This document shows positions 40,776 through 61,486 of a DNA stretch of 64,000 nt, piece after piece. The DNA lies in NCBI GenBank assembly GCA_017402445.1, contig JAFPME010000040.1, positions 1-64,000 of the forward strand. The letters run 5' to 3'. The stretch's first letter is position 1, and each line of letters begins with the position of its first letter. The notes under the pieces were generated by a model. The model worked only from the letters and a program-made list of their open reading frames with translations, searched no databases and was not told where the DNA came from. The translations under genes were made by a program, and so were the position numbers. Source of the stretch: Prevotella sp. (lineage in GTDB: Bacteria > Bacteroidota > Bacteroidia > Bacteroidales > Bacteroidaceae).

Positions 40776-40811
40776 AAGGTTTCGGGGCTGACAAACGATC
40801 CCCGAAACCTT
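40776..40811 (+). terminator. Perfect 12-bp hairpin between the two hcp genes
   Basis: AAGGTTTCGGGG (40776-40787) and CCCCGAAACCTT (40800-40811) are exact reverse complements around a 12-base loop. It begins 11 bases after the first hcp stop, and ACACCTTATTTTATATATATA follows. It could be a partial terminator or an mRNA stabiliser giving high Hcp yield, with read-through aided by the NusG-like protein. Confidence 0.7.
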
Positions 40812-40834
40812 ACACCTTATTTTATATATATACT

Positions 40835-41242: not shown

Positions 41243-41286
41243 TTACGGCAACCATCATTCAAAAACATTTCAGAGACTTTCGCCCC

Positions 41287-43527
41287 ATGTCTATCTCAGT
41301 CAAAAACATTTCCGTCAGCATTGCTGGCATACGCTCCAACAGATTCAACATAGAACTGTCGGGAGACAAATTCTCCTTGGCCAACTTCGTCATCACGGAG
41401 CGCCTGCTTGACCACTGCAGGCTTAGTTTCAACCTTATCAAGGCGCCCGACGAGTCCATCGGTGACACTCAGTTCCAAGTCTGTGCCGACATCATCGGCA
41501 AGGAAGTAACGCTATTCCTTGAGACTGACAACATGGAAAACGAAATCCAAGGATTCAGCAGCGGCGACCAGAATGCAGACATCGAGTTCAAGGGATTCAT
41601 CTGCAACGCTTCCGCCTCGCGCGCAAGCAACGCCCAGTACGCCATCAGCGTAGAAGCAGTGAGCTGGGACGGCCAGCTCGATGACAGCCCGGATGTCATG
41701 CATTACAATAACGAGAGCCAGACGCTGGGACAGATTGTGGAGAACGAACTGATGTTCGCAGAGAAACTGGAATCGGAGGTTGAACCGATGTTCGATGAGG
41801 CTTCTGAGCCACTGAACTACTGTGTGAAATGGAATGAGACGACCTGGGGCTTCATCCGACGGCTGGCCATCCGCCACGGTGAGTGGCTCTTCAGCGACGG
41901 CAGGAAGCTCTACTTCGGCCGATTGCCTGAAAAAGAGCAGGTGAAGCTGTTCTATCCCAGCCGGGACCTGACGGACTACGGCGCCAGTCTGAGTGTGAAT
42001 CACCTGAACTATGCTCAGATCATCTTGTCTGACCATCAGGTCTATGCAAAGAACAATATATGGGGCAACTACCGTGAAGCGAAAAACGACAAGATGACCG
42101 ATGTGCTGAACAACCTGAACGAAGCGGCTTTCGAAGCATCTAACGAGAACTTCCAGCGACTGACCATCGAGTCGCTCGTGGGCAGTGGCATGAAATGGGA
42201 GTTCAACGGCACATCAGAGCATCTTGACATCATGCAGACACCTCAGGCGAAAGGTCGTAAGGCATCGTTACTTAACTATCAGGGATCATCTTCGTGCTCC
42301 AGGCTGAGCGTCGGATGCAAGCTGACCATCGTGGACAACTATATCACTGACGCGCAATCGAACACAAAGAGTGACGTTCCTCAGGACGAGATACTCATCA
42401 CATCGGTGGTGCACATATTCTCCAATGACGAAACCTACGAGAACACTTTCAACGGACTGGCCGCAGCCACACAATATCCACCTTATGCAAACCCCGCAGC
42501 AGTGCCGAGGGCATTTCCTTGCTGCGGATGGGTTGCCGACAACAGGGATCCGGAACGCATGGGACGCGTCAGAGTCGCGTTTGAACCCGAAATACTGAAA
42601 AAGCTGAACGGACACATTGACGCGGGGATGACGCCGTGGATACGCGTCGTACAACCCTACACTTTCGTCAGGGGCCGCGGTGCTTACCTCATCCCGGAAA
42701 AGAACATCCAAGTGCTTGTGGACTTTGAAGGAGGGAATGCCGAAATGCCGTATGTGCGCGGCTGCCTCTATGCTTCCAGCCATGATAACGACGGTCCCGT
42801 AATGACTGCGGGCTCCGAAGACACCAGTGCCGAGTATCTCCATGAGGCACCCGACCGGAACTGGACCAGCAGCGAGAACGTTGAAAACAACGAAGTAAAG
42901 GCACTGAGGACAAAAAGCGGGCACACCATAGAAATTCATGACAAGGGACCGAAAGGAATGTTCAACCACGAAGGCTATATCCGAATCTACAATGCCCACA
43001 AGCCACATTACGAAATCTTGCTTTCTTCCGACCGCAACCTCATCAAACTGAGATCGGAGGGCAACATCGAGCTGGATGCCGCAAATGACATCATCATGAA
43101 GGCCGGCAATGACATGAAGATAACAGTCGGTAATGACCACAGCACAGAGGCGAAGCATGACATCAAAGAAAATGCCCACAACGAACTTAGCTCACACTCC
43201 GACAAGAACATGTTCCTTGACACAGGTAGCGAACTGCACGTCTTCGCTCAGGAGAATATGTTCCAAGCGACGTATGCGGACTATACACTGACCGTGGAAG
43301 GGAACCAGAAAACAAACATAACGAAGAATCTTACCATCGATGTACATGAAAGCATGGACATGGCCGTCACCAACAACATGGAGACAGCTGCCATGAACAT
43401 GAACTTACAGGCACAGAACGAAATGAGACAATACTCAGTAACCCATAATATAAGCGCAACTAACTCAATAGCCGTATCGGCAACGTCAAGCATTGACCTG
43501 AAAGCAATGATCATAAAGGAGAATTGA
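41287..43527 (+). CDS. tssI: Type VI spike protein VgrG/TssI
   Basis: The 746-residue protein starts at the ATG MSISVKNISVSIAG. A GTG at 41233 would overlap the hcp gene and is less likely. A gp27-like base (residues 1-390) includes WNETTWGFIRRLAIRHGEWLF. The gp5-like OB fold begins CCGWVADNRDPERMGRVRV. A long beta-helix follows, with repeats of the type NIELDAANDIIMKAGNDMKITVGNDHSTEA, ending in a tail of short polar and hydrophobic repeats. It forms the needle tip on which the PAAR-like protein and effectors sit. No extra effector domain is fused. Confidence 0.93.
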   Translation: MSISVKNISVSIAGIRSNRFNIELSGDKFSLANFVITERLLDHCRLSFNLIKAPDESIGDTQFQVCADIIGKEVTLFLETDNMENEIQGFSSGDQNADIEFKGFICNASASRASNAQYAISVEAVSWDGQLDDSPDVMHYNNESQTLGQIVENELMFAEKLESEVEPMFDEASEPLNYCVKWNETTWGFIRRLAIRHGEWLFSDGRKLYFGRLPEKEQVKLFYPSRDLTDYGASLSVNHLNYAQIILSDHQVYAKNNIWGNYREAKNDKMTDVLNNLNEAAFEASNENFQRLTIESLVGSGMKWEFNGTSEHLDIMQTPQAKGRKASLLNYQGSSSCSRLSVGCKLTIVDNYITDAQSNTKSDVPQDEILITSVVHIFSNDETYENTFNGLAAATQYPPYANPAAVPRAFPCCGWVADNRDPERMGRVRVAFEPEILKKLNGHIDAGMTPWIRVVQPYTFVRGRGAYLIPEKNIQVLVDFEGGNAEMPYVRGCLYASSHDNDGPVMTAGSEDTSAEYLHEAPDRNWTSSENVENNEVKALRTKSGHTIEIHDKGPKGMFNHEGYIRIYNAHKPHYEILLSSDRNLIKLRSEGNIELDAANDIIMKAGNDMKITVGNDHSTEAKHDIKENAHNELSSHSDKNMFLDTGSELHVFAQENMFQATYADYTLTVEGNQKTNITKNLTIDVHESMDMAVTNNMETAAMNMNLQAQNEMRQYSVTHNISATNSIAVSATSSIDLKAMIIKEN

Positions 43528-44456: not shown

Positions 44457-45500
44457 ATGCAAGACTCCTACGTATGTACTTCAGCCATGATGACATGCTC
44501 CTTCGGTATGGGTACCAGCACGCTGACGGTCAATCCTTCGCGGACGGTGATGCTGCAAGGAAAGCAACGTGCCAACATCGGTGACTATATCCCATCGATA
44601 AATATAGGCCCCTTCGGAATGTGCTCAGCACCCTCAAATCCATCTGTCATCTCAGCAACAGCCGCCGCCATGGGTGTGCCAACCCCCATGCCCTGTTTTC
44701 CAGTTATAACCACTCCATGGTTTCCAGGCAAGCCAGACGTGCTGATTCAAGGAATGCCTGCACTGACCCGCTCAAGCAAAAACATGTGCGTGTGGCTTGG
44801 ACAAATTACTTTCGTCACTGACGGACAGACCCCGACTCCACCGCCGATGAATATGACACCACGAGGAAAGCTTGACTGTGAACCTAAAGGAAACAGTGCT
44901 GCACTCACAACTGATGAACTCAAAAACCTGTCAGAAGAGGATAAAGAGCATTACAAGAATGATTTGGAAAAGGCAGAGCAAGCTGGTGCCAAAGAACAAC
45001 TGTTAGCTGGCGCTTGGGCAAAAACGGCTGAAGACTATGAACGTAAAGGAGAGGCGGGTAAAGCAGAAATGGCCCGACAGATGGAGGAAAAGAACAGAAA
45101 CATTGCCACTGACAAGAAGAACCAGGCCATTAGCGATGTCAATCGCCAATACCGCGAGACACTCCCTCCTTCTAAGGAAGACTTAGACAAACTAAGCAAC
45201 AGCCAACGACAAGAGTACGAACAGAAACGGACAGCCATCAATGCCGAAAAGCAGAAAGCATACAGAGAAGCGGAAATAGACCGTCAGCTGTCCGACAACG
45301 TAGCCAAAGACATGATGGCCCCAGACAATTATGGTGACCCACGAGAGATGCAAGCCAACAAATCGACGGCCCTTCTTATTAGCGTCACCGGCGCCGCACG
45401 CGAGCAAAGTGCCAAGAAAAAAGCTGACGAGAATGCTTACAACAAGATGAAGCTGCTAAACCAAGAGACACGCCTTCAGATACAACAAGATGGTTGTTAA
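44457..45500 (+). CDS. DUF4280 PAAR-like spike-tip protein with helical C-terminal extension
   Basis: This is a 347-residue protein. Residues 1-125 match DUF4280: SAMMTCSFGMGTSTLTV, then GPFGMCSAPSNPSV, PCFPVITTPWFPGKPDVLIQGMPALT and CVWLGQITFV, a PAAR-like fold that caps VgrG in Bacteroidetes. From 140 to the end is a long charged helical segment (DLEKAEQAGAKEQLLAGAW, EEKNRNIATDKKNQA, YEQKRTAINAEKQKA), probably a coiled coil. The extension has no known toxic motif; it may hold the next gene product. Confidence 0.82.
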   Translation: MQDSYVCTSAMMTCSFGMGTSTLTVNPSRTVMLQGKQRANIGDYIPSINIGPFGMCSAPSNPSVISATAAAMGVPTPMPCFPVITTPWFPGKPDVLIQGMPALTRSSKNMCVWLGQITFVTDGQTPTPPPMNMTPRGKLDCEPKGNSAALTTDELKNLSEEDKEHYKNDLEKAEQAGAKEQLLAGAWAKTAEDYERKGEAGKAEMARQMEEKNRNIATDKKNQAISDVNRQYRETLPPSKEDLDKLSNSQRQEYEQKRTAINAEKQKAYREAEIDRQLSDNVAKDMMAPDNYGDPREMQANKSTALLISVTGAAREQSAKKKADENAYNKMKLLNQETRLQIQQDGC

Positions 45501-48372: not shown

Positions 48373-48699
48373 ATGACAGACCAGGAATTTTATCAAGACG
48401 AGTTTATCGTGCTGTTGACGATTGACGGCACATCCTATGATGAGATTGAAGTGAAGGTGACAGACCCGAACAAGACGATTCGGGACCAGATCAACAGCAT
48501 CGTGCAGGTGTTCGAACTTCCCAAGATGGACAACGGCGGCAACCCCATCCAGTACTTGCTCGGCAAGCTGATGGAAAACGACGAAGAGCCCGTCATCTTG
48601 GAATTCGAGGATGAGAACGGCCGCGAGATGGCTCTGATAGACTATGATATCCAGCCTTTGGACCATCTGCACCTGATTTCTGTTCCCATTGCTGGCTGA
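48373..48699 (+). CDS. Ubiquitin-like beta-grasp modifier
   Basis: This is a 108-residue protein. The pattern FIVLLTIDGTSYDEIEVKV, then TIRDQINSIVQVFELP, PIQYLLGKLMEND, EEPVILEF and DYDIQPLDHLHLISVPIAG follows the beta-grasp order: two strands, helix, two short strands, final strand. The C-terminus is exactly Ala-Gly with no extension, so it would be ready for activation without processing. It sits directly before an E2 and upstream of E1, JAMM and RING-like genes in the same operon. YukD-like and bacterial ubiquitin-like proteins share this layout. A gap of 122 bases precedes it. Confidence 0.75.
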   Translation: MTDQEFYQDEFIVLLTIDGTSYDEIEVKVTDPNKTIRDQINSIVQVFELPKMDNGGNPIQYLLGKLMENDEEPVILEFEDENGREMALIDYDIQPLDHLHLISVPIAG

Positions 48700-48750
48700 A
48701 AAGAGTCATCATCAAGACAATAGTAATAACCTTGCTAAAACCTATCGACT

Positions 48751-49413
48751 ATGAATCCAATGTTGAATAACTTCAATCTGAAAGAACTGAAGGGACGCGA
48801 TGCCCGTCTGTTCCAGGAATGGAAAGAGCTGGATGCACTTTGCAGCAAACGGAAACAGCAGAGCCCGAATCCGTTCAAGCCTTCTCTTTCGTATATCATA
48901 CGCAGGAAGAACGTCATCGGACTGCCTACAGAGTTTGAAATCTGGTATCGTTGCAAGAGCATCGTCGGCGTGGAAGAGACGGAACCGCCTCGCAAGCCCA
49001 TCTTCGGCGACTTGCACAAGATGAGCGTCGTGCTGCCCAACAACTATCCTTCCGCCGACGGCAATCCCGTGTTTACGTTCATTACAGACATCTGGCACCC
49101 GAACATCCGCCACTCCGGCAGTTTCAAGGGACATGTCTGTCTGACCATCAAAGAAATGGGCGTGCTGGCCAGCATCAAGGATCTGGTGTTGCGTGTGGAA
49201 CGCTATCTGAAGTATCAGATGTACCACGCCCAGAACACCTATCCTTACCCAGAGGATCAGGGCGTGGCCGAGTGGGTCCGCGAAGAAGGTGAGCCCAACG
49301 GTTGGGTGAAGTTCGCGCAGGACAGCGCCGAACCGGCCCCCACTCCACCTCAGCAGTCATCCGACAACAATGAAGAAAAACCTCGGAAACCCAAAGTGTC
49401 GTTGAGTATATGA
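48751..49413 (+). CDS. E2 ubiquitin-conjugating enzyme-like protein
   Basis: The 220-residue protein has a UBC core at about residues 15-165. It includes LPNNYPSADGNPVFTFITDIWHPNI (YP...P.v.F), then GSFKGHVCL, so the eukaryotic-type HPNI...G.VCL motif is present with Cys130 as the expected thioester cysteine. EFEIWYRCKSI corresponds to the central strands. A Pro/Ser-rich tail (residues 190-220) follows. Its TGA overlaps the ATG of the next gene. It should accept the beta-grasp modifier from the E1 at 56080 and pass it to a target, perhaps with the RING-like protein. Confidence 0.85.
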   Translation: MNPMLNNFNLKELKGRDARLFQEWKELDALCSKRKQQSPNPFKPSLSYIIRRKNVIGLPTEFEIWYRCKSIVGVEETEPPRKPIFGDLHKMSVVLPNNYPSADGNPVFTFITDIWHPNIRHSGSFKGHVCLTIKEMGVLASIKDLVLRVERYLKYQMYHAQNTYPYPEDQGVAEWVREEGEPNGWVKFAQDSAEPAPTPPQQSSDNNEEKPRKPKVSLSI

Positions 49414-50483
49414 AAAAAACACTGTTCTTATTCGTATTGTTGTTCACGCTGGCCTCGACAGCTCTGGCTGACGAACAGAAAAAGATAACGCTGAACGGCG
49501 ACCATCCGCAGGAAACCATAACGCTGGCCTACGCGAACATCTTCGTCTCGCTTGCCGAGAACGACGGCGAGAGCGGAAAGGTGAAGATCGAGATTGAGAA
49601 CCTGGACGAATCCAACGTGTTGGTGCTCTTCGACCGTGCCTACGATGAAAAGACGATCAAGAAGATGCCGACGTCGATTACATTCGACAAGACATTTGGC
49701 GGAACAAAGAACAAGCGTGTCATCGAGCCTTACAGCGGCGACGGCGACCGCGTCATCCTGTTCCGTCCTTCCGACAAGTACGACCTGCCCCTGCTGTCCG
49801 TTTCGAACGGAAGTGCGCAGGTCTGCCGCCTTCCCATCTATATCGGCAAATACAAGGGAAAGAAGATGAACAAGGTCCTGCTGTTAGAAAAACAGATCAT
49901 CGAGCTGAACATCGAGGCCGAGTTCAAGCCCAGTGCGGAATACCTGGGGCTGAAGGACAAGTGCGACAACCTGGAAAGGGAGATCTCGCGCGCCGTGCTG
50001 TGCACGAATCCGAAGCACAAACCATCGCTGGACCGTCAGCGAGTCGGCTATGTCAACAAGATTGATGCCTTGAAGAAAGACATCGACGAAGCCATAGCCC
50101 GACACAACTGGACTCCCTCCGACAACGGATATGTGCGCTACACGGCTTTGAAGAAGACCTTGGACAGCATCGATCTCGATTCGCGCGAGCGTGACTGCGG
50201 ACGCCATAAGGCAGCCAGTGGCGGCGGCGGTGGCGGCCACAAGTGCAGTTACTGTTCGCTGTCCTTGCAGCAGATATACCACAAGCTGGACGATCTGTAC
50301 AAGAGGATCTACAGCAGTTCCGACCGCAAGGCGGCCAAGAAGGCCGTCATGAGTCAGGTGAACGCCCTTTATCGGTGCTGCACGGATGCCTCTTGCAGCA
50401 AGCATGCAGCGCAGTGGAAGAGCGGCGGCGATGGTTATAAGTCGAAGATAACAGAGCGTTATAATCGTATCAACGGAATATGA
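49410..50483 (+). CDS. Periplasmic protein of the ubiquitin-like/T6SS locus (paralogue 1)
   Basis: The 357-residue protein has a signal peptide (KKTLFLFVLLFTLASTALA) and no membrane segment. A beta domain at about 22-165 contains VLVLFDRAYDE, SNGSAQVCRLPIYIGKYKGKKMNKVLLLE. These elements recur in the next gene product (VAVVMFDRTGN, TSGSKAQLSIPLYLAHYEGKRHYKVF), so the two are paralogues. A helical part follows, then a Gly-rich stretch and a Cys/His-rich region (HKCSYCSLS ... CCTDASCSKH) that could bind metal or form disulfides. It overlaps its neighbours by ATGA on both sides. Probably part of the envelope complex. Confidence 0.65.
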   Translation: MKKTLFLFVLLFTLASTALADEQKKITLNGDHPQETITLAYANIFVSLAENDGESGKVKIEIENLDESNVLVLFDRAYDEKTIKKMPTSITFDKTFGGTKNKRVIEPYSGDGDRVILFRPSDKYDLPLLSVSNGSAQVCRLPIYIGKYKGKKMNKVLLLEKQIIELNIEAEFKPSAEYLGLKDKCDNLEREISRAVLCTNPKHKPSLDRQRVGYVNKIDALKKDIDEAIARHNWTPSDNGYVRYTALKKTLDSIDLDSRERDCGRHKAASGGGGGGHKCSYCSLSLQQIYHKLDDLYKRIYSSSDRKAAKKAVMSQVNALYRCCTDASCSKHAAQWKSGGDGYKSKITERYNRINGI

Positions 50484-51874
50484 TCACATCAAGGTTTTCC
50501 TGCTTGACACTCTTTTTCCTGCTTGCATTGACGGCACAGGCTAAAGACGTGAAAGACACGCTCTACTCAAGTGGTGGCGACCGCATCATAGTGAACTATT
50601 CCATTGTTCAAAACGGCGGCCAGGTGTCGGTGCGTTTTCAAGGTGTGCACAAGAAATTAGGGCAGAAACATCAGGAGAAATACAAGAAGCTGAACGAAGT
50701 GGCTGTTGTCATGTTCGACAGGACCGGCAACTACAGCGACATCAAGTTTGACGGAATGACCGCCGATGCCTTCATGGTGCCTTCAAACCTGAACTACTCC
50801 AAGTCGTCCGACGGCTATTTCCTGTTGCAGGACGAACCGTCTCTTTCCTTCAGTCTGACATCGGGCAGCAAGGCCCAGCTAAGCATTCCACTCTATCTTG
50901 CCCATTATGAAGGCAAACGCCACTACAAGGTTTTTGCCAAATGCGGTGACCTTCAACTGACATCAAGCGGAGAGAACCGCCGTAGCAGCAGCCCTTCGTA
51001 TGGTACAAGTGAGGTGACGATGGAGACGGTATCGTCTGCAGCAGAAGAGGAAGTGCTGGTTGACGAAGGCATGTCGCCCGTCGACGAGGCCGCCATCAGA
51101 ATCAATTCGCTCAACTCCATGCTTGAACGAGCCAACAAGTTCCCGTTGTCTGAGGACCTGACGCACGAGGCACAGATGCTTCGCGAACTGCGTTTCAAGG
51201 TGACCGACCCTGAGACTTCGGCACAGATTAACAAGGCTCTGGAGAACTATGAAAACAAGAAACAAGAGCTGGAAAGCCAGGCCGACGCCAACCAACAACA
51301 AGCCGCTGCTGCACAGGCCGCTGCTGCTCAGGCACAACAGGCCCGTGCCGATTCCATTGCAGCGGCACAGGCAGAGCAGTCGTCGAAAGACAAAAAGGAC
51401 ATGATGTGGCTGATTGGCGGACTCGGTGCCCTGACGGTTTTGTTCATGGGTGTCAAGCAGGTGGTTCAAAGCATCAAGAACAACAAGATGCAGAAGCAGA
51501 TGATGGATTCCATCAAGCAAGCACAGAGTGCCGCCCAGCGTGCTACTCAGGAAGCCATGAACGGTGCCAATCCGCTGAATGGGATAAACACTCCGCAAGG
51601 AGGAGCCAATCCCCTGAACCAAATGGCGCAGAAAGTACAGCAGGAAGGTAAGCGCGCCATGAGCAAGGAGGCCGAAGCTGCGAAGAAACGGCTGATGGAA
51701 ATGCGCAAGGGCAAGAATGCCCCAGACATGGAGCAGAGTCAGGCAAAGGCAGAATCCAAGACGCCCCCGTCGCCCAAGCCTCACCGTCCTTCCATGAATG
51801 ATGTGATTCCGTCAAAATACAAGCGTTGGCGGAAACCAGGACAAGAGAATAACAATAATAATGTTTCAATTTGA
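50480..51874 (+). CDS. Signal peptide-coiled coil-TM protein of the locus (paralogue 2)
   Basis: This is a 464-residue protein. A signal peptide (SCLTLFFLLALTAQA) leads into a periplasmic beta domain related to that of the preceding gene (about 22-155). Next are a helical region and an Ala/Gln-rich coiled coil (QQQAAAAQAAAAQAQQARADS, about 270-300), a membrane helix MWLIGGLGALTVLFMGV (about 308-325), and a 140-residue, Met/Gln/Asn-rich, mostly disordered cytosolic tail. The layout (outside domain, one helix, inside tail) equals that of the JAMM and vWA-RING proteins that follow. It may help form the trans-envelope platform that replaces TssJLM. Confidence 0.65.
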   Translation: MITSRFSCLTLFFLLALTAQAKDVKDTLYSSGGDRIIVNYSIVQNGGQVSVRFQGVHKKLGQKHQEKYKKLNEVAVVMFDRTGNYSDIKFDGMTADAFMVPSNLNYSKSSDGYFLLQDEPSLSFSLTSGSKAQLSIPLYLAHYEGKRHYKVFAKCGDLQLTSSGENRRSSSPSYGTSEVTMETVSSAAEEEVLVDEGMSPVDEAAIRINSLNSMLERANKFPLSEDLTHEAQMLRELRFKVTDPETSAQINKALENYENKKQELESQADANQQQAAAAQAAAAQAQQARADSIAAAQAEQSSKDKKDMMWLIGGLGALTVLFMGVKQVVQSIKNNKMQKQMMDSIKQAQSAAQRATQEAMNGANPLNGINTPQGGANPLNQMAQKVQQEGKRAMSKEAEAAKKRLMEMRKGKNAPDMEQSQAKAESKTPPSPKPHRPSMNDVIPSKYKRWRKPGQENNNNNVSI

Positions 51875-51880
51875 CGTGTT

Positions 51881-53638
51881 ATGAAAACATCAAACGCACT
51901 TGCGATGATTGCTTTGCTCTTCTTCTTGGCAGGTGGACAGGTGCATGCACTTCCATCCAAGAAAGGCAAAAACACATCGAACAAAGAAGACGCGACGGTG
52001 GTCGTAGAAGAATTCCGCAAACATGTGGAGACCGTTCCCTATTTTTCTGACACAGCTCTGACAGCAGTCCGAAACCAGATTGACGAGCACATCAAGTGCC
52101 TCAAGAACTGGAATGACCGCGAGGCATACATCGAGGAGCATCAGCTGAAAGAGTATATTAGCACCTATCGTGATTCGCTGCAATACTATAAGGGCATTGC
52201 AACGGTGCTGATTGACAATTTCCTCAAACAACACAAAGTCGGTCCCGATGAAGAACAGGAGTGCCTGAACAGCATGAAGGGAATACTGGACGACAAGTTG
52301 GGAGCACGGGAGACAAGCCTGAACCTGCTTGACCGCGAACTCAACACCGTCACAGAAAAGTCATCGTCTGACTGGAAGACCGTTGGATGGATTGCAGGCG
52401 GCATACTGCTTGTAGGTGTGTTGGTGGCAGCCTTCCGGAAGAAAGGAAACCGACCTGCGCCCCCCGCACCTGTCAGGACTGCGCCGACGGGGCAGCCAGG
52501 CGCCGACGGGGGAATCATCGTTCGCCGCAAGACCGCGACCATCTTGAAGAAACAGAGTCTGGAGGATGTGATTGGCAATCCGAACTACCTACAGATAGAT
52601 GTTGCCGATTTCAGCTATGAGTCGGCCGTCCGCCGCATATACATCAAGAACACCTGTATTGTTGACATATATAATATGTATGCAGGAGACATCAGCAACC
52701 CTGACAATGCAAAGGAATATGGATGCATGGTGCTGGGACGCTGGGTCTTTGACAATGAAAGTCAGGAGTACTACGTGTCGTTGGAGCAGATTGTGTTGCC
52801 GGGAGACGATGCAGTGTTTGCTGAGTATGAGCTGAATTTCGGAGGAAAGATCAAGCTGCGCGTGCTGGAACAGTTGCGGAAGCTCCGTCGTGAAACCAAT
52901 TTCCAGTACGACCTGACGTGCTGGGTTCATTCTCATCCCGGGCTTGGTGTCTTCTTCAGCAACTCGGACGTGAGCGTGCAGACGCAGCTGAAACATCCGA
53001 CACACCCCAATTTCCTGACAGCTATCGTCGTGGATGTCCTCACGCCGACACAGGAACTGGGCATCTTCACCTTCCGTCGCGACCAGAACATCAATTCGAA
53101 AAACGACTTGAAACGGCTTTATTCACTGAAAGAATGGTACGAGTGGGCCGTCAAGTCGATGGGTGAAAACATGCCTGATGCCAATGAAGAGTTCCAGCAC
53201 TCCGACTTCTTCGATACACTCTCGGAAGCGAAGTCGTACTATGATGTTTGCAAGTGCGTGTTGCTGAATCGTGAGATTATCGTAGACATGTGCATGTCGA
53301 TGAGTGCACAGAGCAGCGGATTCGTCGGATATGTCCATGGACGCTCCTATCAGAAAGACCAAAAAGTGGAGCATCTGGCTGAACTGCTATCGAACAACGA
53401 ATCGGTGTCGAAGCTCGACTTGGTCGGCTGTTTTGTCACTGATACACATTTCAGCATTCCGACCATCCGGAAAGCTGTGGAGAACAACTTGGAGAAAATG
53501 AACTTCGTCCTGTTCTACTCACCTGTAACAGGTGTGCTGACGACGATACCCGTCATCGACGGAAAGCTGGCAACGGATGAGAATTATTACGGAGAAAAAC
53601 AATTAGAAGACCTGAAGATATGGACAAGAAAAAAGTAG
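51881..53638 (+). CDS. Membrane-anchored JAMM/MPN+ isopeptidase (deubiquitinase-like)
   Basis: This is a 585-residue protein. A signal peptide (1-24) is followed by a helical periplasmic domain to 165, a membrane helix WIAGGILLVGVLVAAF (170-185) and a Pro-rich linker. The cytosolic JAMM domain spans about 240-430. All zinc-metalloprotease signature residues are present: Glu279 in EYGCMVLG, His350 and His352 in WVHSHPG, then Ser360 and Asp363 in FFSNSD, an exact HxHx7Sx2D. Such enzymes cut ubiquitin-like proteins from targets. With the modifier already ending in Gly, its job is probably deconjugation. A second domain (about 440-585) looks like a degenerate MPN copy. It overlaps the next gene by 19 bases. 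Confidence 0.85.
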   Translation: MKTSNALAMIALLFFLAGGQVHALPSKKGKNTSNKEDATVVVEEFRKHVETVPYFSDTALTAVRNQIDEHIKCLKNWNDREAYIEEHQLKEYISTYRDSLQYYKGIATVLIDNFLKQHKVGPDEEQECLNSMKGILDDKLGARETSLNLLDRELNTVTEKSSSDWKTVGWIAGGILLVGVLVAAFRKKGNRPAPPAPVRTAPTGQPGADGGIIVRRKTATILKKQSLEDVIGNPNYLQIDVADFSYESAVRRIYIKNTCIVDIYNMYAGDISNPDNAKEYGCMVLGRWVFDNESQEYYVSLEQIVLPGDDAVFAEYELNFGGKIKLRVLEQLRKLRRETNFQYDLTCWVHSHPGLGVFFSNSDVSVQTQLKHPTHPNFLTAIVVDVLTPTQELGIFTFRRDQNINSKNDLKRLYSLKEWYEWAVKSMGENMPDANEEFQHSDFFDTLSEAKSYYDVCKCVLLNREIIVDMCMSMSAQSSGFVGYVHGRSYQKDQKVEHLAELLSNNESVSKLDLVGCFVTDTHFSIPTIRKAVENNLEKMNFVLFYSPVTGVLTTIPVIDGKLATDENYYGEKQLEDLKIWTRKK

Positions 53639-56025
53639 TTTTTGTTCAGAGATTTCTGAGCATGTTGGTTTGTGCAGCTTGGATGGTTCCTGCGCTTGCA
53701 CAGGACGTGTCGCGCATCCAGTTTTGTGACAAGAAATACGAGTATGGCCAGGGAAAAGACAGCATCACCTTGTTTTTGAAAGTATTGGACGGGAAAGGAG
53801 TTTCGACGAAAGATGTCAGTGTGGCTGATTTGGAAAAATACTTAGTGGTGAATGAAGAGGGGACTCTGATTTCTCCCGACCGTCGAAAAATAACAGCCGT
53901 CAGCTCGGGCCAACGCATTCCGAGCGACTTCACGTTCTCCGTCCTGGTTGACCTGGGAATACCTGAAGAAGGTAAAGACAGGATCTACTCCACCATAGGC
54001 AAGCTGGTGGACAGTGCACCGGACAGCTGTGTCTATCTGTCTTTCTTTGGCGACGAGGTTTCATCGAGCGAGATGGTGACCAAAGCGAACTACAAGAGCT
54101 TCCAAGCACGTTTCCATGCTACGGCCGAAGCGAAGCATTTCTACAGTGCACTGTATTCAAAACTGACAGAATTCAGCTCCGCAGCAGGCGAGTTCGAGCA
54201 GGACGTGAAAGCTGTTGCAGGTTACAAGAAGAACACAGACATCCTGAAACGCGCACAGTTGGCCAAGGACAAGAATGTTCTGATAGTCTTTACCGATGGA
54301 AATACCCGCTCGGAAGACGAGACCATCACTTTCCTTGAAGTGACCGACTATCAGTCGAATCCCGCTCATTTCGTCCCACGTGTCTATGCCATGTACTACA
54401 CGGGGAACGGTGTCGACGAGAACGTGAAGCTCACACTTGAGGGCGTTTCTGTCCCGCGCGACACGACAGGAACCATTCTGAAGGAGCGTCAGGGATCATA
54501 CAAGCCCTCAGACGATATGAATAAAGTGCTGCAAAATTTCGAAGAAGTGGTCAATGACGCCATGTACGATTTCGCTTTCACCTATCGTGCCACAGAGGGT
54601 AAGGCTTATACTGGCAGAATTGCCTATGTCGCCGAGTGGAAAGGTATGGAAGCCGGACAAGGCGACTACTCTATCGGCACGGCAGAAACACCTTGGCCTC
54701 TGAAGGCTGAGAGTGCAGCCGACTCTTTGCTGAAATTTGTTGTGGCCTTGCTGGTGGCCTTTTTGACTGCCGTCTTCTTCTTCCTGATAATGAAGATTGT
54801 GATTCCATACATCAAGTCGAAGCGTTTCTCCATGCAGTATTATAAGAAATATGAACCCGAAGCCAATGTACAGCGCCGCATCTGTACCTATTGCAGACAG
54901 GACATAGAACCGGGACAGCTGGTGGTTGTGAAGTGCAAGCACATCATGCACGTCAGCTGCTGGCAGCAAAACGGTTACAAATGCGTGGAGTACGGTCAGA
55001 ACTGCAAGGAGGGCATTCAGGACCACGTTGACATGAAAGAGATTTTCAGCCGTTCGTCACTGCTCGAGAGCTATCAGGCATTATCGGGAATCGTGGCCGC
55101 ACTGGTCAGCTGGATATGTTTCGAGCTGATGGGCCGAGGCATTCTGACATCCTTGGCGTCGGGCATTGCGAAGACCTTCTTCCGCAACGAAGAGCAGATG
55201 GGGAATCTGTTCAATGACTGTGTGCAGAAAGTGTCAGCTTTCCTGGCCGTCGGTCTGTTGTTGGGTTTCTTCCTTTCGCTCGTTTTCCGTTGGAATGACG
55301 AGTACCGAAAGAAAGATGCAAAGACTTGTCTGAAGATATTCGGGCTGTCGGTATTCTCGGGAGTCGTCGGCATGCTGGCATTCGCTGTAGGCGGCATCAT
55401 CTTCTGTCTGTTGCTGTCTGCGGTCGGAACGACCTACATCCCGTGGTATTGTTCTTTGCCTGCCTACATTCTGTTCTCCATTTGCGTGGCACTCAGCCTT
55501 ACGGTAAAGTCGTCCATACCGATGAAGAGCGCTTTGGTTGGAGGTTTATGCTCCGCCGTCATCGGCTTCGTTGTACTGGCATTCAGTGGTGTCGTAGGGG
55601 CCAAGTACGGATGGATGAGCATGCTGCTTGACTTTATCATCTATGGAGGCGGACTTGGAGCCTCGCTCGTCACAGTCCGTATGCTGGCAGAGAAATTCTT
55701 CCTTGTCATCAAAAACGGTGTGAAGGCAGGTCAACGCATTCCAATCCATAAGTGGATGAATGCTACTGGTGGCGGAAACAAGGTATCAATCGGTATGACA
55801 GGCGAATGTGAGATACAGATGAACTGGGAGAAGAGCAACAAGGTGGCCAAAGAGCACGTCCAGCTCTTCATTGACAAAGCTAAGAATCTTCCGATGATGA
55901 AGCCATTGGCTCCCGGTGTGGTCTATAATGTCCGCACGGAACTGCCTGCCAGCCGTCAGGTAGTATTGTCGAATGGCGATACGTTCAAGGTCGGCGACAC
56001 CATCTTTGAATATGTAGAATCGTAG
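53620..56025 (+). CDS. vWA-TM-RING-like-FHA membrane protein, candidate E3
   Basis: This is an 801-residue protein. A signal peptide (to 28) precedes a periplasmic vWA-like domain (about 103-330; FSVLVDLGIP, where the MIDAS DxSxS is lost, and VLIVFTDGN). Next come a membrane helix (371-397) and a zinc-finger-like segment with C422, C425, C439, H441, H444, C447, C455 and C462. This follows the RING-H2 order C-C-C-H-H-C-C-C, though the last pair is spaced C-x6-C, not C-x2-C. About six more membrane segments (485-690) and a C-terminal FHA-like domain (715-801; NKVAKEHVQLF, SNGDTFKVGDTIFEYV) follow. Topology puts RING and FHA in the cytosol, next to E2. FHA suggests phospho-control by the kinase at 63794. 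Confidence 0.75.
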   Translation: MDKKKVVFVQRFLSMLVCAAWMVPALAQDVSRIQFCDKKYEYGQGKDSITLFLKVLDGKGVSTKDVSVADLEKYLVVNEEGTLISPDRRKITAVSSGQRIPSDFTFSVLVDLGIPEEGKDRIYSTIGKLVDSAPDSCVYLSFFGDEVSSSEMVTKANYKSFQARFHATAEAKHFYSALYSKLTEFSSAAGEFEQDVKAVAGYKKNTDILKRAQLAKDKNVLIVFTDGNTRSEDETITFLEVTDYQSNPAHFVPRVYAMYYTGNGVDENVKLTLEGVSVPRDTTGTILKERQGSYKPSDDMNKVLQNFEEVVNDAMYDFAFTYRATEGKAYTGRIAYVAEWKGMEAGQGDYSIGTAETPWPLKAESAADSLLKFVVALLVAFLTAVFFFLIMKIVIPYIKSKRFSMQYYKKYEPEANVQRRICTYCRQDIEPGQLVVVKCKHIMHVSCWQQNGYKCVEYGQNCKEGIQDHVDMKEIFSRSSLLESYQALSGIVAALVSWICFELMGRGILTSLASGIAKTFFRNEEQMGNLFNDCVQKVSAFLAVGLLLGFFLSLVFRWNDEYRKKDAKTCLKIFGLSVFSGVVGMLAFAVGGIIFCLLLSAVGTTYIPWYCSLPAYILFSICVALSLTVKSSIPMKSALVGGLCSAVIGFVVLAFSGVVGAKYGWMSMLLDFIIYGGGLGASLVTVRMLAEKFFLVIKNGVKAGQRIPIHKWMNATGGGNKVSIGMTGECEIQMNWEKSNKVAKEHVQLFIDKAKNLPMMKPLAPGVVYNVRTELPASRQVVLSNGDTFKVGDTIFEYVES

Positions 56026-56079
56026 TTTTAGTTTTTCTTGAGTTTCAAGAAATCCAGAGTTTTCAAAGTGGCGGAAAAG

Positions 56080-57279
56080 ATGGAAAAGGAAAAGAGATAT
56101 GAGTGGGGAGAGGGTGTGTTCACGTTGCTCTCCTGGTTCAAAAAAGAAAAAGTCCGCAATGCCCGTGTGCTCGTCGCCGGGGCAGGAGCATTAGGCAATG
56201 AGGTCGTGAAAAACCTTGCGCTTTTCGGCGTCGGACATATATTCGTGGTCGATTTCGACCAGATTGAAATCTCCAACCTGACACGCTCGGTGCTGTTCCG
56301 CGAGGAGGATGCCTACAGTCATGCCTACAAGGCGGACATCGTAGCCAAACGGGCGATGGAGATCAACCCACAGATTAAAGTCACTCCCATTGTTGGCAAT
56401 CTGTTCTCAGAAGTCGGTCTTGGCATCTACCGTTCTGTCGACGTGGTCATTGGATGCCTTGACAGCCGCATTGCCCGCTATTTGCTCAACAGGCTATCCT
56501 TACGCGCTGGGAAAACGTGGATTGACGGCAGCATTGAGAATCTGACCGGAACAGTACGTGTGTTCACACCTGGCATTAGCTGCTATGAATGTGGACTGTC
56601 GCGCGAGGAATTCAACAATATCATGCTGAGAACAGGCTGTGCGGATGTAGTCAGAACACAAGGTTCGGCAGGACGTGTTGCCACGACACCAATCAGTGCT
56701 TCCATCGTTGGGGCACTGCAAGTGCAGGAGGCGATGAAAATCATACATCTCGACACGGAAGCCGCATCCCAGTTCCAAACACTGCAGGGCAAGATGATGC
56801 GCTATGAAGGCATGGTTAACGCCATGAACATCTACAAGTTCGCATCATGGAAAAACAACTGTCCAGCTCATGAGCATTGGGAAAACGTTGAACAGTGCAA
56901 GGATTTATCGGCAGGAATGTCTGTCAGAGAGGCTTTGTCGTTGCTGAAACAACACTTGGGAACGAATGCCGTTGAAATCAACATGCGCAACAACAAGTTC
57001 ATCGACATCATCATTTCTGACCGTCCGGAGAAGGAGTTTAAGGTTATGGTTCCTGAGTCGAAGCTTGACAATGTCATCAAAGAAAACAAGGAAATGCGGC
57101 AGCTTAGCTACCGAACTTTATTCCACAAACATTTCTATGAGAACATTGACGATACATTCCCTTACCAGGAGCTGACGTTACAACAAATAGGAATCCCATT
57201 CTATGACGTCATTCAGGTTTCTTCCGAGCGCGGAGTATCGTATGTAGAACTGAGCGCAGATGGCAAGTTATACGAATAG
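56080..57279 (+). CDS. E1-like ubiquitin-activating enzyme (ThiF/UBA superfamily)
   Basis: The 399-residue protein begins at ATG MEKEKRYEWGEG, chosen over an in-frame TTG (56038) or GTG (56068). ATP-binding VLVAGAGALGNEV (GxGxxG, residues 34-39), VVDFDQIEISNLTRSVLF with the acidic, Asn and Arg residues that contact ATP, AYKADIVAKRA with the adenylation Lys, and GCLDSRIARYLLN are all present. CYEC (168-171) is half of a possible zinc site. Cys187 in RTGCADVV is the best candidate for thioester formation. A C-terminal 130-residue region may be a ubiquitin-fold-like docking domain (FKVMVPESKLDNV, YVELSADGKLYE). It should adenylate the modifier's C-terminal Gly and hand it to the E2. Confidence 0.87.
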   Translation: MEKEKRYEWGEGVFTLLSWFKKEKVRNARVLVAGAGALGNEVVKNLALFGVGHIFVVDFDQIEISNLTRSVLFREEDAYSHAYKADIVAKRAMEINPQIKVTPIVGNLFSEVGLGIYRSVDVVIGCLDSRIARYLLNRLSLRAGKTWIDGSIENLTGTVRVFTPGISCYECGLSREEFNNIMLRTGCADVVRTQGSAGRVATTPISASIVGALQVQEAMKIIHLDTEAASQFQTLQGKMMRYEGMVNAMNIYKFASWKNNCPAHEHWENVEQCKDLSAGMSVREALSLLKQHLGTNAVEINMRNNKFIDIIISDRPEKEFKVMVPESKLDNVIKENKEMRQLSYRTLFHKHFYENIDDTFPYQELTLQQIGIPFYDVIQVSSERGVSYVELSADGKLYE

Positions 57280-57294: not shown

Positions 57295-58200
57295 ATGGAA
57301 AACAAACAGAAGGTAATGACCGTCCCTGAGAATTTCCCCTTCGATATCAGTGCAGAGACGCTGTTGAGTTTTTTCCCTGAAGACGGATGCTCCGTTTCCT
57401 TTCGTGGGCTTCACAAGAGGAACTCTTACAACGACATCGTCAATATAGAGGAAGACCATACAGACCGTCTGCATGTGGACATAGCCAGGTTCAGTCTTTA
57501 CAACTCTCTGCCGGAGTACATGTTCCATCCTATTGACCGTTTCGACAATCTTCCACAATACGAAGAAAAGGAACGATTCGAAGAACAACTGGAGGCCCAG
57601 CAGGAAGAGATTGCGAAGGCATACCGTTTTTTTGCACCAATCGACATTTTGCTGCTCAAACAGCGAATGGATGTGAAAGAACGAGTCCTGCCTTTAGCCC
57701 AACAGAATCGCATCATGGAAAGAATCATCGGCGACAACCTCACTGCCGAACAGCTTGAGAACCGTTTCATTCGCCTGTGCATTCCTTTCCTGCCTCAGTG
57801 CAAAAACATCAGAGGCAACAAGACCCTTCTGACGTTTCTGCTACGCAAAGTGCTCATGGAGGAAGGTCTGCAGGTAGAAGTGCATCACATGACCGAATTA
57901 CAACGGGATGAACATCCTCGTTACGAAGAATCGTTGGACTTGACACTGGGAGAAGGCTTCATGGGCAACGAGTACGTAGACATGGTAACGGTCTATGACA
58001 TCTCTTATTGGAGTGACGATGAATGCAATGAACAATTCCTTCATTTTATTAACGAAATCGAAGTCTTCCGAGTATTCCTGCAAGACTGGTTCTTGGCTGT
58101 AGGCGAGGAACTACGATTCAACATCACCCAAGACGAGTTGCCTCTTCGCCTGAATGACGAAGTGGTCTACAATTATTTGAATTACAATACTAACATATAA
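57295..58200 (+). CDS. tssG: Type VI baseplate protein TssG-like
   Basis: The 301-residue protein is assigned by context (next to TssK, TssE, TssF) and weak family pattern. It has RFFAPIDILLLKQRMDV, RFIRLCIPFLPQCKNIRGNKTLLTFLLRKVLMEEGLQVE and a C-terminal FLHFINEIEVFRVFLQDWFLAVGEELRF, similar in layout to Bacteroidetes TssG, in which two copies with TssF and TssE form the baseplate wedge. Sequence conservation in this family is low, so confidence is moderate. Confidence 0.65.
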   Translation: MENKQKVMTVPENFPFDISAETLLSFFPEDGCSVSFRGLHKRNSYNDIVNIEEDHTDRLHVDIARFSLYNSLPEYMFHPIDRFDNLPQYEEKERFEEQLEAQQEEIAKAYRFFAPIDILLLKQRMDVKERVLPLAQQNRIMERIIGDNLTAEQLENRFIRLCIPFLPQCKNIRGNKTLLTFLLRKVLMEEGLQVEVHHMTELQRDEHPRYEESLDLTLGEGFMGNEYVDMVTVYDISYWSDDECNEQFLHFINEIEVFRVFLQDWFLAVGEELRFNITQDELPLRLNDEVVYNYLNYNTNI

Positions 58201-58205
58201 TACTT

Positions 58206-59186
58206 ATGCCAAAAAGAATCAGTTGGAAGAAGGGAATGCGTCTGACCGACGAGGTACTCCTTGCTGCCGACCGCTGCAATGACGAGACTCTGGGACATGC
58301 ATTTGCTTTGGCATCAATGGGACGTTTAGGCCTGATGCCATCAACAAGGCCTTTCCGCTTGTCTATGAGTGTGACAAGAGGTTACATAGAAGTAGAAGCC
58401 CTCGATTGTCTGGGACTTACACGGGCTGGCGATGTTATTGACGTACAGTTCGGAACGAATTTCACCAATTCGTACGAGACTCGTGTCCAGATTCCTGGCG
58501 GAAGTGATGACAACGATTTCCTTCTGACCGTCAATGCTCACCCTGACGACTGGAAAGATGCAGAGGGAGGTTATCGTGAGCCCACCTACACTTTTTCTTT
58601 GGTTAGTCCAAAGACGGCTCTTTCGGAACATGCTCTGCCAATCGGGCGCATCGTTAACGATGGTGGTTGGCAGGAAGACGTGAACTACTTTGTTCCACCT
58701 TGTCTGCTAGTGTCGGCACATGCCAAATACGAGCAACTCCTTCAGCAATTCCTTGAAATATTGCAGTCTATTGATTCGAAGACCCGTCAGCAGCTGAAGA
58801 CCCCAGTGCGGACTGCCATCAGCATCTATTGGCCAGTGGTACAGCAGGTGTATGTAGAAGTGAACACTTGCCGCGAGGTGCTCACTCCGATACAGTTGCA
58901 GGCTTGTGTCCAGCGAGTCGTCAGGACTTTCGTTTGTGCCTGCGACCTTGATGACATTCTGACACTCGAAGATGCAGACATCTTCCTCAATTATTCAAGT
59001 GTCACTTATAATCCCAGCATAGCGTATCTCAGGATCAGACAAGGATTGGGCATGTGTTATTCAATCAGCGAAAAAATAGAGAAATTCAGTCTGCTGAAGG
59101 AAGAACCGACGGTAGCACCACCGCCGCCACCAAAGCCAGAACCACCGAAGGACGACCGTCGACGTTGGAACGGACCTAATATATGA
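58206..59186 (+). CDS. tssK: Type VI baseplate protein TssK-like
   Basis: This is a 326-residue protein. The N-terminus ISWKKGMRLTDEVLLAADRCND matches the TssK start (xxWxxGMxLxxxxFxxxD). A beta-rich domain follows, then a helical middle (YEQLLQQFLEILQSIDSKTRQQL), a C-terminal beta region and a Pro-rich tail. TssK normally links the baseplate to the membrane complex. With no TssL/M here, it would have to dock onto the unusual membrane proteins of this locus. Shorter than proteobacterial TssK (about 440). Overlaps tssE by ATGA. Confidence 0.7.
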   Translation: MPKRISWKKGMRLTDEVLLAADRCNDETLGHAFALASMGRLGLMPSTRPFRLSMSVTRGYIEVEALDCLGLTRAGDVIDVQFGTNFTNSYETRVQIPGGSDDNDFLLTVNAHPDDWKDAEGGYREPTYTFSLVSPKTALSEHALPIGRIVNDGGWQEDVNYFVPPCLLVSAHAKYEQLLQQFLEILQSIDSKTRQQLKTPVRTAISIYWPVVQQVYVEVNTCREVLTPIQLQACVQRVVRTFVCACDLDDILTLEDADIFLNYSSVTYNPSIAYLRIRQGLGMCYSISEKIEKFSLLKEEPTVAPPPPPKPEPPKDDRRRWNGPNI

Positions 59187-59677
59187 TGGAGTATATCGGC
59201 ACCCCCTTGAATATCAGTGATGACGGGCAGTTGGTTCGCGATGTCAACGAGCGTATTACTATGCTCGACAATCTGGTCGAACTGATCGTATTCACACCTC
59301 GTGGCAGTTTTGAGGCAGATCCGGATTTTGGCTTTGAATATTGGAACCATGAATATTCGAACGTCCACTACCGAGAATTCAACAACAGCCAGCTAGGAAA
59401 GGGTTCCTTCGGCCTGCATAATGACGTGACGAGAAAAGAATGCGAAGAAAGCATCCGAAACAGTTTGGCAACGTATGAGCCAATGCTGAAGAGTGTAGTT
59501 GTCTCAATTGAACTCGACACTGCTGTAGACAGACAACTGCGAAGGAATCGGATGCCATCCAAGTACGAGGTAAAAGTGATAGTAGAGGGAAATCTTGATG
59601 ATGGATTAGGCACCAAGGTTTCATATAGGAAGATGGTGACTTTCCTGATAGAACCTACCGTAAAACGATATCGATAA
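59183..59677 (+). CDS. tssE: Type VI baseplate protein TssE (gp25-like)
   Basis: The 164-residue protein carries the gp25-like pattern: ERITMLDNLVELIVFTPRGSFEADPDFGFEYW, then ESIRNSLATYEPMLKSVVVSIELD and a final strand VKVIVEGNLDD. TssE starts sheath assembly on the baseplate. The family EPR motif is represented by the YEPML segment. Overlaps tssK by four bases and is followed after 18 bases by tssF. Confidence 0.82.
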   Translation: MMEYIGTPLNISDDGQLVRDVNERITMLDNLVELIVFTPRGSFEADPDFGFEYWNHEYSNVHYREFNNSQLGKGSFGLHNDVTRKECEESIRNSLATYEPMLKSVVVSIELDTAVDRQLRRNRMPSKYEVKVIVEGNLDDGLGTKVSYRKMVTFLIEPTVKRYR

Positions 59678-59695: not shown

Positions 59696-61486
59696 ATGGA
59701 TGTAGAATTAGAGAAAAAAATCGGCGAAGCCATTGAGAGCATTCGGAACATGTCGACTGACAGGACAGACTTCCAACAAATGGATCCTGTAGCAAAGATG
59801 ATGCTCGTAGCACTTATTGCCGAAGAACAGAAAATACACGACCACATAGACAGCCTGCAGGAACGATTGGTTGAGCGGTTCTGCTCCGACTTCATTCCGC
59901 GGCGCAAGATTGAGGCCATTCCTGCTGTTTGCCTCATCAAGCCGGAAGTCAAACGGACATCCGATTCGTCAATGGTCAGTGTCGGCTCTGGTTCCGTTTT
60001 CTGTTACAAGGCAGACAACATCAAGCAGCCATTGAACTATATTCCGGTGTTTGAAACGTCGTTGCTGCCTCATCAGGGACTCTATCTGCTGACTCCCCGG
60101 CAGATGAAAGCAGATGGTAAAGTGATTCCTGTCAGAATGGAACGACAGGAACAAGTATGGATCGGCATCAAGACAACAACTGAAGTTGACAACCTCAAAG
60201 GATTGTCGCTGTTCATCAAAGGAACAGGTGGTGTCGTTCCAGAACATATCTATGCTGTCAATGACGGCAGCGAAATCGAGTTCTCCACCATGCTTGAGAT
60301 GGAAAACCTTGAAATGGCGGAGCCTTTTGATGCCCAACAGTCTTCGAGAGAGATGTTCTCGTTCATTGAGACATGGAAAGAGTGTATGCTAAATCTCGAG
60401 GACGCCAGTTTGGTTTACATTACGGACAATGCAGTGAACCGTGATTCGTTCAAGCCGAAAAGCTATCCGAGAGAGTTCCAACAGTGGCTGGAAAGTGACG
60501 TACTCAGCAGCTTTGAGGACGGGACCGTTTGGTTGAGGCTCGATTTTCCTGATGGTTTTGCCGTTCCTGACAGTTGTGAGATTGTACTGAATGTGCTGCC
60601 TGTCACCAATATTGACGTGAACAGTCTGATGCTCACACAGACACAGCCGATGGCGAAGCTTCAGAAGATTGAAGAATCTTTCTTTCTCTGCATCTTGGAA
60701 ACCACGACGGCATCGAACCGGCAAGGTTTTGGAATGCTGTCTGATGAGGTGATTGTCCGCGACTTTGATGCTTCATGCTACAACAACGGCGACCTTTATC
60801 GGGAAGTCCGAAATCTTTATAACCACTTCATCGACGATTATTACGCTTTCGTAGAGTACAACGGCATTAAGGACGGTGAAGTCTTGAAACAACTGCGTGA
60901 GACTATCAACAAGCTTGGAAAGAGCGTGGGGCAGCAGAATCAGACATTTTGTTTTGACAGTGGCACCTACGTGATGAAGAACATGAACCAATATCCTCCG
61001 ACATCTTCCACGAGGGTTTCCTATATAACGACAATGGGGCGAGTCGGAAACCTGCCTCAGACAGGAGACAACATGGACAACCGAAAGATACCTGCTCTCG
61101 GACAGAAAGTACAAGTAGTAGTAGGAGGAATGGGAGGAGCCGACAAAGCTACAGCAGACGAGCGTTACGAGCAACTTCGATATTATTCGCTGACCAACGA
61201 CCGCCTTTACACCCGTATGGATGTGGATGCTTTCATAAGGAAGGAAATCATCGGAGAGTTTGGCAAAGAGGAATTCCGAAGAATCTCTATCAAGACCAGC
61301 ATTGGAGGAACTGGTGGTTCCGCAAGTCTGCAACGCGGCCTTTACATTGATATTGAATTCAAGGACAAGAAGAACTACAACAGAGCTGTCGGCATGTTGT
61401 ACGACAAAATCCTGCAGCAGAAGATCATCAACAAGTCGTGCATTGCCATGCCAATTAAGGTGCAGCTCAGAAACCTTGAGGAATAA
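59696..61486 (+). CDS. tssF: Type VI baseplate protein TssF
   Basis: This is a 596-residue protein of normal size. It has an N-terminal helical part with DPVAKMMLVALIAEEQKIHDHIDSLQERLVERFCSDFIP, equivalent to the DPDVERLLEAFAFL-like start of TssF. Beta domains follow, with EIEFSTMLEMENLEMAEPF and VWLRLDFPDGFAVPDSCEIVLNVLPVTNI (matching the nCxPvvNlf element of TssF). The C-terminal domain ends RGLYIDIEFKDKKNYNRAVGMLYDKILQQKI. With TssG and TssE it makes the baseplate wedge. Confidence 0.85.
   Translation: MDVELEKKIGEAIESIRNMSTDRTDFQQMDPVAKMMLVALIAEEQKIHDHIDSLQERLVERFCSDFIPRRKIEAIPAVCLIKPEVKRTSDSSMVSVGSGSVFCYKADNIKQPLNYIPVFETSLLPHQGLYLLTPRQMKADGKVIPVRMERQEQVWIGIKTTTEVDNLKGLSLFIKGTGGVVPEHIYAVNDGSEIEFSTMLEMENLEMAEPFDAQQSSREMFSFIETWKECMLNLEDASLVYITDNAVNRDSFKPKSYPREFQQWLESDVLSSFEDGTVWLRLDFPDGFAVPDSCEIVLNVLPVTNIDVNSLMLTQTQPMAKLQKIEESFFLCILETTTASNRQGFGMLSDEVIVRDFDASCYNNGDLYREVRNLYNHFIDDYYAFVEYNGIKDGEVLKQLRETINKLGKSVGQQNQTFCFDSGTYVMKNMNQYPPTSSTRVSYITTMGRVGNLPQTGDNMDNRKIPALGQKVQVVVGGMGGADKATADERYEQLRYYSLTNDRLYTRMDVDAFIRKEIIGEFGKEEFRRISIKTSIGGTGGSASLQRGLYIDIEFKDKKNYNRAVGMLYDKILQQKIINKSCIAMPIKVQLRNLEE

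Follow-up and report, generated by a model that had tools for sequence, protein, structure and literature searches.

A type VI secretion system (T6SS) operon with a predicted ubiquitin-type conjugation module inside it lies on the plus strand of a 64,000-nucleotide stretch (the window) of a Prevotella-like metagenome-assembled genome (G000; contig JAFPME010000040.1; 1.87 Mb, 50.7% complete). The operon runs from a NusG-type gene at 35410 to beyond the window end. Its left part encodes, in this order, ClpV, TssB, TssC, two Hcp proteins, VgrG, a 303-amino-acid protein, a DUF4280/PAAR-like protein, and cargo genes. These are followed by a ubiquitin-like modifier (Ubl), an E2, the proteins p357 and p464, a JAMM protease, p801, an E1, and the baseplate proteins TssG, TssK, TssE, and TssF, after which come a 429-amino-acid protein, a glucosaminidase-LysM protein, a Ser/Thr kinase, a 597-amino-acid protein, and a PP2C phosphatase. 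The module, from Ubl to E1 (48373-57279), is placed between VgrG/PAAR and TssG-K-E-F in one tight operon, where the junctions from E2 to TssF are overlaps of 4-19 bp or gaps of 5-18 bp, and Ubl is separated from E2 by 51 bp. Sheath, tube, spike, ClpV, and baseplate genes all stand in this one locus, with TssB, TssK, and TssE each matching their families below cut-off. Modifier, E1, E2, RING, and JAMM would together make up a complete ubiquitin-type tagging pathway. The first-pass annotation had described such a block inside a T6SS operon, and the present analysis confirms it, with active-site motifs kept and all genes in one direction.

The modifier is a single domain of 108 amino acids. Its fold was judged from a structure model because the profile matches are weak: the model (predicted local distance difference test, pLDDT, 88) matches ubiquitin folds, the Ubl alone gives only a chance match against Pfam, and PDB profiles match single ubiquitin at E 0.03 or worse and polyubiquitin repeats lower. 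The last residue is Gly in 119 of the 120 homologues listed (475 found). Second Ubl copies at four loci (L041, L050, L051, and L061) have no terminal Gly and are possibly non-conjugated partners. The Ubl also resembles that of EccD5, and its relatives match YukD weakly, which may be an echo of type VII secretion or chance. The E2 has a PDB profile match to E2-25K (3e-8), and its H116-P-N118 and C130 are invariant in 25 aligned rows. The E1, which holds one ThiF stretch, matches the UBA7 profile (5e-35) as well as ThiF/MoeB models; GxGxxG, D142, and the cysteines C140, C182, C185, C201, and C275 are invariant in 21 aligned rows. By its position in the MoeB/Uba4 type, C201 is presumably the thioester cysteine.

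The remaining four proteins are predicted to be secreted or membrane-bound. The JAMM protein matches the RPN11 profile (2e-6), and E279, H350, H352, S360, and D363 are invariant in 24 aligned rows, E279 being the putative catalytic Glu. The protein p801 (801 amino acids) consists of a vWA domain (94-315), a transmembrane segment (about 373-391), a RING (422-462) whose zinc ligands are kept in 84 of 86 open reading frames, about six further transmembrane segments, and an FHA domain (691-801). Its structure model is middling (mean pLDDT 66; 25/845 sequences), with clear fold matches for the vWA and FHA parts only. Hydropathy yields the membrane segments alone; a signal peptide, one transmembrane segment, and then an even number of further ones would place RING and FHA in the cytosol and vWA in the periplasm. 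What we take to be the usual phosphate-binding Arg of FHA domains is not kept. Four Cys and one His are invariant in p357 (20 rows). For p464, EssA of the WXG100 (type VII) system scored weakly (E 0.016, under cut-off), which may likewise be an echo of type VII secretion or chance.

The distribution of the module was followed by scanning a p801 profile against one genome per species (84,980 species), which gave 73 loci. Nearly all come from records named as Bacteroidales or as groups within that order, one being labelled Lachnoclostridium; their titles include Prevotella, Prevotellaceae, Muribaculaceae, Barnesiella, Tidjanibacter, Dysgonamonadaceae, and others, and three of the records are named strains, Xylanibacter muris PMUR, Palleniella intestinalis PINT, and Barnesiella sp. 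An22. At least 8.5 kb on either side of p801 was available in 48 loci, which were judged, and 25 were left out for short flanks. Ubl, E2, p357, JAMM, p801, and E1 occur in 48/48 (p357 weakly in L069 and L074), p464 in 45, TssG, TssK, and TssF in 47, and TssE in 46. The exact gene order is kept in 45, the misses being L035, L069, and L074, and E1 adjoins TssG in 73 of the 74 loci that hold the two genes, a count in which some genomes figure twice; the adjacency extends to the class whose gene order is rearranged.

The module also co-varies with the core. Correlating pairwise distances with those of TssF (loci L002-L068, 500 permutations) gave r values of 0.66 for Ubl, 0.70 for E2, 0.82 for p357, 0.84 for p464, 0.86 for E1, 0.87 for p801, and 0.89 for JAMM, with no permutation as high for any of the seven genes; the baseplate genes TssE, TssG, and TssK reached 0.89-0.94, and the glucosaminidase 0.83. 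At the level of sequence, a chance association of module and T6SS is excluded. The first-pass proposal of a pathway in the service of the secretion machine is borne out in part: linkage speaks for it, through the fixed synteny, the co-variation with TssF, and a presence that follows T6SS clade. Random presence and absence, or folds other than those expected, were not seen, and the modelled modifier, vWA, and FHA folds fit. A constant link to tssK/tssF, which the first-pass annotation had proposed to check, holds in 47/48 judgeable loci in one direction only, as TssN-type T6SS and one sister clade have no module.

Table 1. Features of the T6SS operon and its predicted conjugation module
Feature	Coordinates	Strand	Basis
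NusG-type protein	35410-36006	+	Pfam NusG 37.1 bits; immediately 5' of ClpV
ClpV/TssH ATPase	36021..38321	+	Pfam AAA_2 + ClpB_D2-small
TssB sheath (weak)	38425..38880	+	Pfam VipA E 0.035, under cut-off; adjoins TssC
TssC sheath	38917..40299	+	Pfam TssC PF17541, 443.6 bits
Two Hcp/TssD tube proteins	40358..41242	+	Pfam TssD
VgrG spike	41233..43527	+	Pfam Phage_base_V + Phage_GPD
PAAR-like DUF4280 protein	44457..45500	+	Pfam DUF4280, 108 bits
Ubiquitin-like modifier (Ubl), C-terminus IAG	48373..48699	+	Model, ubiquitin-fold matches, homologue C-termini
E2 conjugating enzyme (HPN...C)	48751..49413	+	Pfam UQ_con above cut-off; PDB profile match; invariant motif
p357, signal peptide, predicted periplasmic, conserved Cys/His	49410..50483	+	Hydropathy; presence across loci
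p464, signal peptide, predicted periplasmic domain, one transmembrane segment, cytosolic tail	50480..51874	+	Hydropathy
Predicted membrane-anchored JAMM isopeptidase: signal, transmembrane segment 167-185, C-terminal JAMM	51881..53638	+	Motif, RPN11 profile, hydropathy
p801, predicted membrane RING E3	53620..56025	+	vWA-transmembrane-RING-multi-transmembrane-FHA
E1 activating enzyme	56038..57279	+	ThiF 168.8 bits; UBA7 profile match
TssG-like baseplate protein	57295..58200	+	No Pfam match; homologue (141-150 bits) between ClpV and TssN in TssN-type loci L078-L080
TssK baseplate protein	58206..59186	+	Pfam VasE 4e-4, NCBIfam TssK 9e-8, both under cut-off
TssE (gp25-like)	59183..59677	+	Pfam GPW_gp25 E 3e-4, under cut-off
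TssF-like baseplate protein	59696..61486	+	439 bits to gene 3' of TssE in TssN-type T6SS
Ser/Thr kinase, 5' part, continues past window	63794..64000	+	Reading frame; Pfam Pkinase 129.9 bits on part beyond window (L129)
PP2C phosphatase	contig 67177-68058, beyond window		Pfam PP2C_2 57.7 bits (L129)

The T6SS of Bacteroidota described so far carries a membrane complex, with TssN as its hub, that was looked for here. According to the available part of a published survey (PMC10781749), TssNQOPR, whole or in part, was present in all 443 T6SS-iii among 1253 complete genomes; its models may have missed loci of the module type, perhaps since the majority of these sit in metagenome assemblies. The window locus shares with that system TssB/C, Hcp, VgrG, PAAR, ClpV, and TssE/F/G/K, as far as the same excerpt describes it. 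It differs in its ubiquitin-type block, in forming separate TssC and TssF clades, and in having no detectable TssN, TssO, TssP, or TssR. Pfam TssN (PF17555) was found neither in the scanned window genes nor in the window genome, and profiles for TssN, TssO, TssP, and TssR, built from TssN-type loci, matched nothing in the window at E 10, by sequence only. Among 115 loci, these profiles, which include none for TssQ by itself, matched TssN-type loci only; that for TssO also picked out a second small gene per locus.

Genome samples give the same picture. Of 251 Bacteroidaceae genomes, 22 have TssC, and these include all 9 with p801 and all 9 with TssN above cut-off; G611 alone has both, together with two TssC loci differing in score. 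Among 393 genomes of the order, TssC was found in 18, p801 in 7 (5 with TssC), TssN above cut-off in 8 (7 with TssC), and both in none. TssN matches under cut-off were left uncounted (5 in the first sample, 6 in the second), one of them in the module-bearing G633, away from its T6SS. When the 37 TssC genomes are pooled, 12 have p801, 16 TssN, 1 both, and 10 neither, an overlap with a one-sided Fisher p of 0.003 if genomes are treated as independent, which they are not. Ten genomes reached via module loci (G388 again among them) comprised nine with TssC and returned zero TssN matches, although the same family did match in the other samples. In trees built from 22 rows of TssC and 33 of TssF, the TssN type separates from the module-bearing plus module-free classes (100/100); the tool flags long branches, and for the TssF tree only every fifth row of the window's class was kept. 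G485, first labelled module-free, groups with module-bearing rows in the TssC tree; its contig stops after PAAR and no p801 was found, which may reflect an assembly gap or a loss. Judged from its sequence, the window locus is a T6SS lineage without detectable TssNOPR and with a predicted writer/eraser pair.

Two relatives of the window's class differ in content. In a second module-bearing class (G611, G609, G421, and G396), the order is E1-TssG-TssK-TssE-TssF-Ubl-E2, two further genes, and a p801 homologue, and the Ubl ends in PFPG in 4/4. A module-free sister class (G583, G258, and G555; L081-L085) has no ubiquitin-type genes and encodes after TssF a 146-amino-acid FHA protein and two kinases, the first of them a kinase-FHA protein, with an M23 peptidase 5' of TssG; its genes were assigned by Pfam on G583 and by phmmer on G258 and G555, and a further contig, from G428, measures 5.7 kb.

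Phosphorylation may be a second layer of control. The kinase of the window operon is a membrane Ser/Thr kinase, encoded with the 597-amino-acid protein and the PP2C phosphatase in the 63794-68058 stretch. Of the 56 module loci of the window type that extend at least 2.5 kb past TssF, 48 have a kinase gene after it, different in kind from the sister-class kinases; its profile found nothing in what was fetched of the second class, L069-L074, or TssN-type loci. The idea that kinases are the hallmark of the module-free sister clade, one system replacing the other, was dropped, as kinases occur in module loci too. From gene content, phosphorylation and the ubiquitin-type module overlap in distribution, and neither is a plain substitute for the other. 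In Pseudomonas, T6SS is controlled by a threonine phosphorylation pathway consisting of a kinase, a PP2C phosphatase, and an FHA protein. By analogy, the window operon would likewise combine a writer, an eraser, and an FHA domain at the membrane, and it also encodes a kinase and a PP2C phosphatase; the ubiquitin-type writer and eraser are additional, and the likeness is one of function, not of tested homology. Because kinase and phosphatase resemble assembly control in other T6SS, post-translational control appears the likeliest reading. The kinase finding cuts both ways for the explanations considered below.

The explanation that we prefer, with moderate confidence, is that this T6SS lineage has its own predicted E1-E2-RING-JAMM-Ubl cascade, which would reversibly modify parts of the machine, either baseplate or membrane anchor, and so permit its assembly at the inner membrane or undo it. 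The proposal builds on gene order, motifs, the modelled modifier, vWA, and FHA folds, co-variation, and the lack of detectable TssN/O/P/R, and its steps reach beyond them. The E1 would adenylate the modifier and hand it to the E2, and the cytosolic RING of p801 would aid the transfer, steering the modifier to a target near the membrane. Likely targets are the docking baseplate or partners of p801, the baseplate being favoured because E1 nearly always adjoins tssG. The JAMM protein, anchored in the same membrane, would strip the modifier; since most Ubls already end at Gly, removal is a likelier role for it than maturation. The vWA domain, p357, and p464 may act as envelope sensors or contribute to the anchor, and phosphorylation would act as well, perhaps read by the FHA domain of p801.

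Several observations weigh against this proposal. The RING of p801 matches Pfam families under their cut-offs and a PDB profile at just E 0.16, and the vWA metal site is degenerate in the T6SS-type p801 family, mostly D-L-S-I-P (window residues 111-115). In the four genomes of the second module-bearing class, the fetched stretches yielded no JAMM, so that reversal is not a feature of every such system. The sister clade is, like the window, without detectable TssN/O/P/R while having no module. A weak co-variation with TssF is also seen for the DUF2931 gene just upstream of the module (r 0.38, 34 loci). Service to the machine is further called into question by two copies of the module away from T6SS: L035 carries it (minus p464) with no T6SS genes nearby, TssC not being found in its assembly (2.0 Mb, with no completeness given), and G016, in whose genome TssC was likewise not found, has a diverged module of E1, Ubl, E2, JAB, and VWA-RING beside SrfB and a Virul_Fac gene.

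In the srfB-linked copy, Pfam VWA and JAB are above cut-off, and Prok-RING_1 and YukD under it. The vWA metal-site motif reads D-Y-S-G-S there, and a second JAMM-like gene follows the module on the same contig (L121, L128; G016:C685:1-40000). Its Ubl ends in IAG plus YLVV, and with such a tail the JAMM of G016 could act in both maturation and removal.

A bolder version, which we hold to be rather unlikely, makes the anchor itself a ubiquitin ligase: p801 would replace TssNQOPR, sense the envelope, and tag the baseplate for docking, with JAMM reversing the tag and kinase and phosphatase added. Slightly less credit is given to a block that is mainly a replacement membrane complex, formed by p801, p464, p357, and the N-terminal half of JAMM, in which conjugation would be a one-off building step and no switch. 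The restriction of the TssN/O/P/R profiles to TssN-type loci and the four consecutive predicted membrane or secreted proteins agree with it, and the accessible part of PMC10781749 places a vWA domain in TssR as well and a ubiquitin-like one in the cytosolic part of TssN. Against it, hhalign of p801 with one TssR and one TssN showed no similarity, a weak test, and JAMM in every judgeable locus suggests reversal. The sister clade has neither TssN/O/P/R nor p801, so that their absence alone does not make the ubiquitin-type proteins a replacement.

Attachment of the modifier to effectors or spike cargo, for loading them or keeping them harmless in the producer, had been among the roles first suggested and is now considered improbable. 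VgrG, PAAR, and cargo genes do lie directly upstream, and the weak signal of DUF2931 points the same way; this role is nevertheless disfavoured because PAAR does not co-vary with TssF (r -0.13, 31 loci; 434 of 500 permutations as high), and the 554-amino-acid cargo gene of the window recurs in 5/74 loci, many flanks ending short of that place. An antiphage cassette of the Bil/Bub kind, in the T6SS locus by happenstance, is very improbable: PADLOC E1-E2 models match the E1 (1.5e-14), with weaker hits of a JAB model (0.012) and of p464 to PD-T4-6 (0.0028), but there is no PADLOC match for Ubl or E2, and fixed synteny and co-variation tie the block to the T6SS core. Sulfur-carrier activation of the ThiS/MoaD type without protein conjugation, which the ThiF/MoeB matches of the E1 would allow, deserves the least credence, given the HPN/Cys E2, RING, and JAMM conserved alongside.

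To our knowledge, bacterial ubiquitin-type cascades with tested roles are mostly antiphage. Burroughs and colleagues reportedly predicted, in 2011, prokaryotic systems that combine RING, E1, E2, JAB, and a YukD-like Ubl and that are not known to have been linked to T6SS there, and the window cascade is probably of the same kind; the window protein or its relatives reach 19.9-21.3 bits with YukD and 15.3-22.3 bits with Prok-RING_1, all under cut-off. Operons of E1, E2, JAB, and Ubl were described in bacteria in 2006, according to the part of that report at hand (PMC1779556). BilABCD likewise unites Ubl, E1, E2, and JAB/JAMM in one operon, but, in the available portion of PMC11354881, its BilA is a tandem Ubl and its E1 has two adenylation domains, compared with one Ubl domain and one ThiF domain in the window. 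The window further differs from BilABCD in its predicted membrane-anchored JAMM, in the added RING/vWA/FHA protein, and in its T6SS context. No T6SS with an E1-E2-RING-JAMM set was found among the literature matches listed, most subscription papers being outside the reach of the search. Across these Bacteroidales records, a secretion operon constantly includes a predicted cascade that has both a RING protein and a protease, and with it emerges a T6SS lineage in which the membrane complex described for Bacteroidota is not detectable. The named strains make the role of a bacterial RING/E2 pair testable.

Some minor observations concern single loci. A match of G140 to p801 (E 1.5e-4, 95 residues) was dropped, as its contig of 9.9 kb carries nothing else of the module. 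TssC and the module stand on one contig each in G046 and G178. The genome of L043 (G640) has a second, lower-scoring TssC with one in-frame stop, possibly from a decaying second T6SS. In the window itself, the NusG-type gene at the head of the operon possibly encodes an operon-specific antiterminator.

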